A stretch of 64,000 nucleotides of DNA, from NCBI GenBank assembly GCA_026874595.1, contig CM049306.1, positions 27,705,519-27,769,518 on the forward strand. Reading direction: 5' to 3'. This document shows, in pieces, positions 14,910 through 38,900 of the stretch (positions within the stretch are counted from its first letter, which is position 1; each line of letters opens with the position of its first letter). This stretch comes from Sipunculus nudus. Lineage: Eukaryota; Annelida; Sipuncula; Golfingiida; Sipunculidae. The notes beneath the pieces are model-generated. The model was not told where the DNA came from, did no database searches, and saw only the letters and a program-made list of their open reading frames with translations. The position numbers were made by a program, and so were the translations under genes.

Positions 14910-17900
14910 GTATGTTCCACATTCTGTAATCTGTAATAACTGTACAAATTGTCTTTGATGCTAACTTCTTCAGGCCAACAAAACACTATTTTATTGTGAT
15001 AATTTTGGATATTCAAGAAAAGAAATTAGTGTTCAGCATTCTACAATAGCTACACATTTTACGCTTATTTCTTGAGGCCTAATAAGACATATCCTGTGAT
15101 AATTATACATAGATTTACCTTTTTCAGAGTAGATACAGATGCAATATGTAAAGGGGTATAAAATTATGTTAATTGTCAATTTGAATCATGTAAATAAGGA
15201 ATTTTTTTATGATTAAGTTGACTGTATTTGTCCCCTATTTGTAAACATGATTATATCGTGACATTACTGTAGGTAGTGCACATTTCCTTTTTTAATTTAA
15301 ATTTTAAATTGTGTCAAGATTTCAATAATATTTGTAACTTGAAATGTATATGAGCTGATAATTTTGTTTATGTATGCTGTACATTTAGTATTTATGTGAC
15401 GTTCAAATCCATTGTTTTCTGAATTGTCCATTAACTTTTGCTCACTTTACTTTGACGTATTTTGTCATATAAACCATATAAGAGATATATCTGCTTTTGT
15501 TAGACACTGCCATGTAGCACTCATGAGTCATGACTGTTTGATAACACATTATTTTGTTGTATGCCAGACTTTATAATGATTTATTGTGACTTACAGTCTG
15601 CAAGAGTTGTATTGTACAACACCTGAACAGGAAGAACACCTGCCCACAATGCCTTAATGTGATTCATCAGAGCCACCCGAAAAACTACATCAGGTGAGAA
15701 AGTTAAATGTCCTTCAATATGTAATAATAAACATACATGTAGTGCCTTGACAATTTCACTGTAACTGTCAGGGTACACATCTTGTTAATTAAAATTGATT
15801 GTTTAATTCTCCTCTTAGTATAATGGATCAATTTCAGAGTGGTTTTGTACACAGGAAAGCACATATCAGAGCTCTTATTTTGAAAATAATCTTTGATTTG
15901 AAAATATATTTATTTAGTGGAGGAATATATACAGCCATTGAAGCTCAAGATGGTGATCATAGTGATTGTGAACTAGATACATAGGTTTATACCTGCATGG
16001 TGTTATAGATTGATAAAGTAAACTTTAAGCATTAATTATATTTATTCACTTTTGATATTTATATAGTTACAATGGTGAAATGACTTCAAATTATTTCTGT
16101 ACAAAGGCATCTGGGTCCAATTTCCCTATTAATTACAAGCTTACATGAAATTATAGGTCAGTATAGAGATTTATTATAATTGACTGATCTGATTAAGAAC
16201 TAGTAATTTTTTGTATGTGCCAGTGCTGATGAAGGCCTAGATGACGCCTAAAACTTTTTGTAACCAATGAACTTCCATGTAATAACTTCATTGCCTACTG
16301 GTAACCTGATGTGAACATCTGAATTTTTTGCAGCCATGACAGAACAATGCAGGATATTGTGTACAAATTAGTTCCAGAATTACAAGATGGTATGTACACA
16401 TGTTTTATACTTTCAGTTTCATGAACACTAAGATATGTAATATTTAGGTTTACAATCTTCCATAGGGATTGAAACAGTTTATATTAAAGGTGGATTTTAA
16501 AATGGATTTGCTTTGAATTTTTTATTAGTTTTCATATTGTTTGAAAGGTAATTTTATGCCTTGAGCAATTAAGCAGCTCTGAAGATTATCATTAGCTCAG
16601 CTGACTATAAGCCATCTTGAGCTGTAGTTGTGGACTTTTGTCCATTGGCAGCCATTGGTCCCTCAGTCCGTTAAACTAGCACATTTTGAAACCATTTGAC
16701 CTAGGAATCTGAAATTCGGCATACAGTTAGATGTCCTCAAAATCTCCTACCGTACTGATATATGGGTCAGTAGGGTCACTAGGACTTTGTTCCTTCAAGA
16801 TATTAAGGAAAAACCTCTGTTTTCTATTAAAAACTCATTGTTACACTTTAGGACTGCCTAATATCAAAACCACTTTTTTGTTTTCAATCATATTTTGTAT
16901 TTATATTCTTCCATATATTTCCTATGTACCTACCAAAATTTAGGTCAGTATTGCGTAATTTTTTGAAGTTATGGTGCCCGAACACCTTGTAAATATCAGT
17001 AAATATAATTACTCACTTAATATAAGGATTGCTGAAGGTAGAAACATTTTTTAGGGATATAACTTCATTTAATCAACATTGTGTACCCCCCTCCTCTAGT
17101 AGTTTTTTTGGCTAAAAACATTACAATAACCAATTTTTAGCTCAGCTGACTGTAAGTAAACTGAGGTATAGGAATGGCGCTTTGTCCTTCGTCCGTCCAG
17201 GTGTCCTGCCGTCCGTTAGCAGGGCACAATTCGTAACTGCTGGACCTAGAAACTTATACGTGGATATCCAGGGAGGTCAATAAAAAATCTCCTTAGAAAC
17301 CTGAAATTAGGTCACTGCGACCTATATCCTTCGAGCTATGGGGCTTGAAAGTACCCCCCAGAATAATCAAAAATATAATACAAAACCTCAAATATCTTGA
17401 TAATTAATGCAAGGATTGTCATGAATCTTGCCTTGAATATTGACCATGAATAGTTTTGTCAGTTCCCGAAAATTGGTGGTGCCACCTGGTTTTTAGCTCA
17501 GCTGACTATAAGTCATCTGAGCTATAGTTGTGGTCCATTGTCCGTCGTCCTTCCGTCTGTCCGTCCGTAGATGTGGCACGTTTTGAAACTGTAAGACCTA
17601 GAAATCCAAAATTTGGCATAATGTTAGATGTCCCCAAGATCTCCTACCAAGCTGAAAACTGGGTCTTTGCAACTACGTTCCTTTGAGAAATTAAGGAAAA
17701 ACCTCAATTTTTTATTAAAAACCTATTTTCACACTACAGGACTGCCTAATATCAAAACTACTCATCTGTTATTCCTCATATTTACCAAAAATATTCCTCT
17801 ATATAGTTCCTATGTACATGCCAGAAATTATGTCTGTATTATATAATTTAAAAAAGTTATGGGCCCAAACATAATGCATTTTGTAAAAAATCAGGAAAGA

Positions 17901-35900: not shown

Positions 35901-38900
35901 TCATCTGCCTTGGCGTAAAATCACTCATATCTCAGCAGTGGTTTGACATATCCACCTGAAATTTTGCAGGTTTATACATCCTGGACAGCTCTCTTGATTT
36001 TATAACAGGTGGAGCCACCTACATTCAGGTTTACTCTGCAGACATCCAAGCTCATATCTCGAGAACTGTTTGACCGATTGGGCCAAAAATGTGCATATGT
36101 TTAGATCTCACATAGGTCTTTATCATACACAAAACTGGAGGGGCCTCATGCAACCATTTTTGCACAGCATCTGTCTGTTTGTCTGCCGTGGGCTAAAATC
36201 ACTCATATACATGTAGTGGTTTGACTTTCTGCCTAAAAATTCGCATATGTATACAATTTGGACAGCTTTCTTGATTTGTGGTAGGTGGCACAACTACATA
36301 CACATTTAGGCTGCAGACATCCATGCTAATATGCCACACACCTCACTCTATTTCCCCTTGCCACTCAATCCATGCCTCACTTCACCCATTCCACTCTGAT
36401 TTTGGTCGATACACATAGTCGCTTGTTGACTACCCGTATTCTAGTTTTAAAATGTCCTAGTCTGAACCTTGCAGGTCCAAAATGTCCATTTTGCTGAAAT
36501 CATAATGACTAAGGTAGATATGCAGGACTTAATATTAGGCCAAAATAAAAAAAAAGTGTGGTTCTCAGGCACTTTTTTTCATAAATCAATGCGGGCGGGC
36601 GCTTTTTTTATTTTAAATTTTTTGGTATGTTTCAATAAAAATGTCAAATGATAAGGGAATAGCATGAAAATAACAGTTTTATTTTGCTCAATAAGTAAAA
36701 GCACTACAAAACAAAGGTATTTGTATGGTTTTATCTTCTTAAATGAAATATCGGAGCGGCAACAGCTCAAAATTGGAAAGTTTTTAATGAAAATCAAAAT
36801 AAAAATGTTTGATGCGGAGGTTTAACATTTATGCGGGCGGTGCCTGAGAACCATACCTTTAATTTTTTTTGGCCTTAAATTTAAAAAATAAACCTCCATT
36901 CATACTCCCAAACTTTGCACAGATTCGCATTAGGCCTGTAGGCCTTGTTTTAAAATGAAGTTTAGACATTTTGGGAGAAGAGACAATTAGGGAAGACCAT
37001 AGAGTTTTGTGTGGGCAGGTTAAACCTGCTCATTACTGAATAAGCCATCTACTCAACAGTCAGTAAATTCTCAAACAGTGTATGCATCTTCTAAAGCCAA
37101 TCGGTTTAATCTGAAGTAATTATTTAATTTAATTTAAAGTATTATTACTCAACTCAAGGCTAACCATACTGTACAAAACACCAATGGAGTGTGAATACTC
37201 TAGTTGAGATGACCTTTAATACTTAACTAAAGACTGTACAAACTGTACAAACAACATTCCACCCCTTGGATTGTGTGGACTCAAGTTGAGCTCATCTTAA
37301 ATGCTCAACTAATTAAAGTCTACCCCAGTTGGTTTCTCAGACACCCAGAGGGTTTGTTTGCACATCCCTTACATCATAAATGTTGAAAACAATCTCTCTG
37401 ATTTTTAGCTCAGCTGACTATAAGTCATCCGAGCTATAGTCGTGGTCCATTGTCCGTCGTCCGTCCGTCTGTCCGTCCGTCCGTCCGTAGATGTGGCACG
37501 TTTTGAAACCATAAGACCTAGGAATCCAAAATTCGGCATAATGTTAGATGTCCCCAAGATCTCCTACCAAGCCGAAAACTGGGTCTTTGCAACTTCGTTC
37601 CTTTGAGAAATTAAGGAAAAACCTCAATTTTTTATTAAAAACCTATTTTCACACTTCAGGACTGCCTAATATCAAAACCACTCATCTGTTTTTCCTCATA
37701 TTTACCATAAATATTCCTCTATATAGTTCCTATGTACATGCCAGAAATTATGTCTGTATTGTATAATTTAAAAAAGTTATGGGCCCAAACATAATGCATT
37801 TTGTAAAAAATCAGGAAAGATATTTTATCACTTAACACAAAAAATGTTAAAGCTATCGACCTTTTTTCCAGTAATATAACTTTAATTAATCAAAATTAAA
37901 TTGTATACCCAAAATTAGATGAAAATCTTTTAAATTTTCTAAAATATTAATAAAAAATAAAAAATTGGTACCTTAAATTTTGCCCAACTTTGACCATGGC
38001 ACGTTTTTTCCTGTAAGTACTGTGGATTTAATTTTCACATCATGTTTTTGTTAGCATTTCAACTGTTAACACCAAAAATTTGAAACCAGTTGATCAAAAA
38101 CTGTAGATTTTAATAAGTTTTCAAGCACCATGTAACATATTGTTTACATCAAGCTAGTGTTATGCAGTTTGCAAGAGCTCAGCTCCCCAGCTTCAGCTCT
38201 TAGTTCCTTAAATTCGGCATACAGTTAGATGTCTCCAAAATCCCCTACCATGCCAAGAATTTGGTCACTAGGACTTAATACCTTCGAGATATTAATGAAA
38301 AACTTCATTTTTCCATTAAAAACCCATTGTTACACTTCAAGACTGCCTAATATCAAAACCACTGATCTGACTTTAATCATAAATAATATACATATTTTTC
38401 ATTCTATATAAACATGCCAGAATGATGTCAGTATTGCGTAATTGTTTTAAGTTATGGGCCCAAACATAATGCACTTTGTAAAAAATCAAGAAATATATTT
38501 ACTCCCTTAACAAGGGCATTGCTGAAGCTAGAGATTTTTTTGTCAGGGATGTAACCTTATTTAATCAAGATTCAATTGAATACCCAAAATTAGTTCTGAA
38601 TTTTTCAAATTTTATAAGTTATTAGTATAAATATAAAATTAGTACCTTAAATTTTGCCCAACTGTGACCATGGCACGTTTGTGTCCTGTGAGCACTGTTG
38701 ATATAATTTTCATATCATGCACACATTAGGATTTCAGCTTTTTAGTTTAGAAAGCTGAAAGAAATTGGCCAAAAATTGTAGCTTTTATTAATGTTTTTTA
38801 TGAGACCCTGTCAGACTTTGGCTCTCTCCAGCCCCTCTTGAGACACCTGTATGTTGACCTTGTTGACCTTTCATCAAATTATGCACGCTTGAGGCGAGGC

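Follow-up and report, generated by a model that had tools for sequence, protein, structure and literature searches.

What are the repeats that recur along this 64-kb window of Sipunculus nudus DNA (GenBank assembly GCA_026874595.1, contig CM049306.1, positions 27,705,519 to 27,769,518, the whole stretch that was analysed and the scope of all counts, copies and joined-flank tests below)? We propose that families A and C are non-autonomous Helentrons (HINEs) and that element F, and tentatively D3, is likely an intermediate between Helitrons and Helentrons, all of them predicted to be copied in trans by a Rep/helicase encoded elsewhere in the genome; we put the probability of this reading at about 0.85. 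An earlier note on this DNA had described a single plan in families A, C and D despite their unrelated sequences. The shared plan is largely real, but it has already been published as HINE anatomy, and the find is mostly ordinary. Nor is the plan uniform across families: F starts with TC, the head of D3 is degenerate, and D4 has no pairing head. Element F is probably the D2 of the earlier note, which gave no per-copy coordinates.

Heads, interiors and inverted copies

The window is dense in repeats, and family A is the main one in a self-comparison, with five copies that retain both ends, one that is split and shortened, and further partial copies (Table 1); homology among the copies begins and ends at the head and tail. 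The A head, AGCTCAGCTGACT-ATA-AGTCATCTGAGCT, is 29 nucleotides (nt) long with a 3-nt loop, as is the C1 head, ATGCCCCTGCCAC-AAA-GTGGCCGGGGCAT, from which the C2 head differs at two bases. The A and C sequences are unrelated, yet they fold alike, with about seven pairs, a mismatch, five pairs and a 3-nt loop. Five A and C heads were folded as single-stranded DNA and compared with shuffles, giving z scores of −4.5 to −5.7 for four and −2.7 for the fifth. In two A-type heads the stem has seven pairs and then, past a 1x1 mismatch, five more up to a three-nt loop; C1 adds one outer pair to this fold and C2 lacks one, and a third A-type head (49790) carries an additional second mismatch. Hairpins with an 11-bp stem, at most one mismatch, a 3-nt loop and a GC count of at least 4 number 13 on the plus strand and 14 on the minus strand, and A or C heads account for 10 and 10 (the same heads on both strands). 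Ten first-order Markov simulations of a single strand each yielded 0 or 1 such hairpin. The claimed head hairpin of about 27-29 nt with a 3-nt loop is sound for A and C and imperfect in D3 and F: D3 closes its 3-nt loop with four pairs, separated by a 2x1 defect from six outer ones (z −2.8), and F pairs only its six outer bases (z −2.2). No pairable head was seen in D4.

The other 5′ features follow a similar division. A run of at least four T stands ahead of nine of the 11 aligned A heads, a degenerate twelfth (44165) having been excluded from the alignment; the run is exactly five T in seven, six or seven in two, and lost in two. C1 and C2 have five T each and D4 also has a T-run, but none is present at F (GTTAATC|GTATCC) or at D3, so the 5′ T-run is not general. 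The TCCG-rich tract of the earlier description corresponds to a GTCC tract in A and in the related array element A2 (the tract at 37452-37488 also scores as a tandem repeat) and to a merely TCCG-rich tract in C, but F has no microsatellite behind its head. The central tandem arrays are confirmed, with measured units of about 180, 337 and 278 bp and, in family A, a two-unit interior (about 680 bp, about 74% identity). The repeats carried by F, D3 and D4 differ from those of A, A2 and C.

The inverted copy of the head had been placed near the 3′ end in A, C and D2, and, with D2 taken as F, it was found in each. In the five full A elements tested it measures 9 nt (three elements) or 10 nt (two) and ends 22 nt from the 3′ end; both C elements have 11 nt ending 23 nt from the 3′ end, and F has 14 nt ending 30 nt from it. 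Between random pairs of 45- and 90-nt segments of the window, an inverted match of 9 nt occurs in 3.1%, of 11 nt in 0.4% and of 12 nt in 0.1%. For A2 the exact head-to-tail inverted match is only 8 nt and misplaced, and D3 shows a by-eye match of 10/14 between head and tail.

3′ ends and insertion sites

That CTAG or CTTG ends are always followed by TT is borne out at 17 of 17 ends. Ten of these are intact A-type tails (eight CTTG, one ATTG, one CATG), beyond which the flanks differ; the others are two C ends, one F end, those of D3 and D4, and two CTTG ends of a further type, G. The pattern used to find A tails was composed from tails already seen, stops before the flank and does not require TT, and an incomplete eleventh tail (about 21250) was left out of the count. 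Across the window, tails included, TT follows 24 of 254 CTAG and 61 of 516 CTTG sites (9-12%). The 3′ hairpin or palindrome fared less evenly. With one tail folded per family, it is clear in C1 (z −3.47) and D3 (z −2.55) but weak in D4 (z −1.34) and in F (z −1.46), where the stem stops 10 nt before the element end. Canonical Helitrons have their hairpin 10-12 nt from the 3′ end.

The G end, CGCATTAGGCCTGTAGGCCTTG followed by TT, occurs in two copies (4525-4546 and 36926-36947), with no head seen. We also note that TTTTAAAATG follows both the end of D4 (36445-36454) and the CTTG end at 36947 (36948-36957). The pair could be a 10-bp direct repeat flanking segment 36455-36947; if it is real, a rolling-circle element would not fit there.

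Empty-site comparison, named beforehand in the earlier note, was run on C1, C2 and F, the three sites with joinable flanks, and none shows a target duplication of at least 4 bp. Relative to the four informative A copies of five (the fifth is uninformative), the joined flanks of C1 carry two additional T, with a single G/T difference next to them. Those of C2, set against four units of the 337-bp array, show single mismatches and, at the site itself, either no extra base or one. Both are compatible with insertion between two T, although the T-runs blur the exact point, as has been published for HINEs (PMC4067079). The joined flanks of F align to all four A copies compared; the fourth is placed differently, and the other three leave a surplus of three bases, which we interpret as F's own TC with one base over. 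Provided that F includes the TC and terminates in CTAG, its insertion site appears to lie between A and T, a placement that is less certain because the host A copy has diverged. For family A itself, a target between A and TT in place of T and T was considered and rejected: eight of nine A heads with a run of at least four T are preceded by A, but A also precedes 59% of the T-runs in the window (p 0.06).

Comparison with published elements

HINEs are described as having palindromic subterminal inverted repeats (subTIRs), a 3′ palindrome and T-rich targets that are left unchanged while the number of T varies (PMC4067079). The 11 oyster HINEs of Crassostrea gigas (Cg_HINE; Vojvoda Zeljko et al. 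2020, PMC7492417) present a subTIR with a complementary inverted repeat (IR), a microsatellite (GTCC/GTCY among them), satellite-like central repeats of 140-180 bp, a 3′ subTIR and a palindrome, with T-rich targets, no target-site duplication and several families unrelated in sequence. The parts of A and C match this anatomy, and the families here thus add members to a described type; they differ in sequence and in the T-run missing from F and D3. The earlier note had likened the families to Helentrons and to bivalve 'pearl' repeats, a likeness that suits the anatomy of A and C well, and the oyster paper counts the pearl family among elements classified as HINE (PMC7492417). HINE-Mo and DINE-1 (Thomas et al. 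2014, PMC4067079) likewise have palindromic subTIRs 2-4 nt from the 5′ end, a second copy inside the 3′ end, a 3′ palindrome and a variable number of T at the ends. Their 3′ copy is offset by 38-60 nt, compared with 22-30 nt here, and, unlike the families here, they have known autonomous partners. Helitron2 of Fusarium shares the 5′ hairpin with a 3-nt loop and the inverted copy upstream of the 3′ end, but has autonomous copies, other sequences and other 3′ ends (PMC5148889).

Element F is a different case. The canonical ends of Helitron1 (5′ TC, 3′ CTRR, insertion between A and T) occur in F alone, in its diverged host; A and C lack 5′ TC. Since an asymmetric inverted repeat marks Helitron2 and Helentrons rather than Helitron1, the 14-nt inverted copy leads us to file F as an intermediate. 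Among oyster TC...CTAG elements (PMC7992393), 86% lie between A and T and 257 of 751 carry subTIRs, accompanied by an IR in a third of cases; of the elements with both, only one has a microsatellite. The TC...CTAG elements are seen there as possible intermediates. F resembles them in its TC and CTAG ends, its site between A and T, the position of its hairpin near the 3′ end, and its subTIR with IR, and differs in its diverged host copy and weak 3′ hairpin (PMC7992393).

Proposed mechanism and alternative explanations

In the mechanism that we envisage, a Rep/helicase protein would nick the 3′ CTAG or CTTG end, the nicked strand would be displaced with the 5′ head acting as terminator or recognition site, and the single strand would be joined into T-rich DNA (A and C) or between A and T (F). 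The central arrays may lengthen or shorten by slippage or recombination, and the families would act in parallel as parasites of one or more autonomous elements.

Several results weigh against this proposal. The window frames tested yielded no Rep/helicase; the longest closed stop-to-stop frame is 328 aa, and 16 window frames compared with Pfam gave no family above the cut-off. An exact inverted head copy is missing in D3 (4 nt) and D4 (5 nt), the 3′ palindrome of A folds no better than shuffles (z −0.47, one tail), two A tails (52400, 55122) have eleven flanking bases in common, and the T-runs at the ends make the exact insertion point ambiguous. 

A Pfam scan of two frames, confined to 3001-16591, found nothing; it was insensitive, since a RING-finger-like exon visible by eye at about 14783-14910 escaped it. 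Pattern searches of viral and genome contigs, phages (C2) and plasmids (A) returned no match to related DNA elsewhere, Rfam at the gathering threshold and a tRNA scan gave nothing in the window, and among the papers listed by literature searches with the element letters none concerned transposons, as judged by title.

The families could instead depend on one rolling-circle machinery, as the earlier note had concluded; such a machinery would recognize fold and CTAG/CTTG-TT rather than sequence. The like folds of the unrelated A and C heads and the TT after every end speak for it, but we regard it as doubtful. The T-run 5′ ends of A and C and the TC...CTAG ends of F show that at least two end types are present; F and D3 have no T-run, D4 has no pairable head, and the tested window frames contributed no Rep/helicase. 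The oyster HINEs could not be related to any of ten autonomous Helentron-type elements (PMC7492417). Much less probable are foldback elements or miniature inverted-repeat transposable elements (MITEs) moved by a cut-and-paste transposase with terminal inverted repeats. Both ends do carry inverted repeats, and the related pearl elements were described as MITEs; the copies are nevertheless asymmetric, one lying at the 5′ end and the other set back 22-30 nt from the 3′ end, and C1, C2 and F lack the duplication of 4 bp or more. Least credible of all is that these are ordinary dispersed satellites or microsatellites with hairpins by chance. Tandem repeats occur in all families and some boundaries have decayed, but common boundaries lie outside the arrays in differing flanks, and three clean joined-flank sites are found in the window.

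With A and C as HINEs and F as an intermediate, the locus adds several families to the HINE picture. The nesting of T-run ends and a TC...CTAG end within each other bears on the Helitron-Helentron relationship, and the ends catalogued here could help to find the autonomous partners left unassigned in the oyster paper.

A mismatch in the head stem

Stem position 8 is unpaired in all seven distinct A heads (C.T, C.A, T.T), while 94% of the 84 other stem cells pair, and it is unpaired in both C heads as well (T.C, C.C). At this position the 3′ inverted copy agrees with the 5′ arm and co-varies with it (T/A in C1, C/G in C2). Bacterial IS200/IS605 enzymes read imperfect hairpins, which offers an analogy: the mismatch might be deliberate, marking the 5′ end so that a rolling-circle enzyme could tell head from tail. 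We think this unlikely. The shuffled letters of the position-8 column themselves rarely pair (mean 3.8%), and descent from a single mismatched ancestor in each family would account for much of the pattern; given two families that share the position, each made up of related copies, the mismatch is a modest lead only. The FoHeli1 head of Fusarium, as printed, pairs with no mid-stem mismatch (PMC5148889), which also counts against the idea. For Cg_HINE, single mismatches are reported between the two subTIRs, and the sections consulted mention none inside the head hairpin (PMC7492417). If it were true genome-wide, the mismatch rule would give a direct binding test of how such enzymes tell the two ends apart.

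Inventory and neighbouring features

Table 1. Elements and element parts located in the window.
Feature	Position	Strand	Description
Family A, full	37402..39858	+	T5 and head hairpin, then GTCC microsatellite, interior of two units, inverted head copy, CTTG end
Family A, full	46781..49408	-	placed behind A2 segment 49409-49790
Family A, full	52400..54915	-	both ends present
Family A-type	55122..56993	-	A-like in head half and tail; diverged in 3′ half
Family A-type	57670..61696	-	interior longer
Family A, split by C1	17490..21250	+	3′ tail shortened at start of repeat E
Family A head hairpin	17495..17523	+	7 pairs, 1x1 mismatch, 5 pairs, ATA loop
C1 element	19104..20270	+	1167 bp, 180-bp array, nested in family A
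C1 head hairpin	19104..19132	+	fold as in A head; AAA loop
C2 element	32444..33974	+	1531 bp, 180-bp array, nested in 337-bp A2 array
A2 element	30695..34419	+	A-type head, 337-bp array, A-type tail CATG then TTT; C2 interrupts
F element	23668..25140	+	starts with TC; head GTATCCCCAGAC, AAA loop; inverted copy of 14 nt; CTAG end; inside old A copy
Old family A 3′ part, host of F	25141..25677	+	about 65-68% identity to other A copies; ATTG end then TTT
D3	28595..29539	+	head hairpin degenerate, with AGA loop; repeats of 154 bp; palindrome AGTCG-CGACT; CTAG then TT
D4	34850..36444	+	T5-AGC start, no pairable head, 278-bp array, D3-like 3′ end, CTAG then TTTT
Two family A tails in tandem	2935..3011	+	46-bp unit; each CTTG then TTTT

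The order A2 segment, A element, repeat E is found twice, at 17133-22270 (+) and 49790-45806 (-), with about 90% identity in the A2-A part and about 81% in E. Homology between the two compounds starts precisely where the A2 head does, the sequences upstream of it being unrelated, and the inner junctions differ by gaps; it looks as though the compound had been mobilised as a single unit. At 2920-3017 the family A tail stands twice in tandem, the two copies differing at one base, possibly a product of end bypass or template switching.

Between TA repeats, an open frame at 9152-10027 with no Pfam family above the cut-off resembles a Penelope-like element with a GIY-YIG-like motif. Finally, a RAWUL-type exon of a polycomb ring-finger-like gene lies at about 26600-26810 (E 9e-7, below the Pfam cut-off), and some 400 bp downstream of it a 42-bp tandem array spans 27212-28423 (28.9 copies, 93% match).

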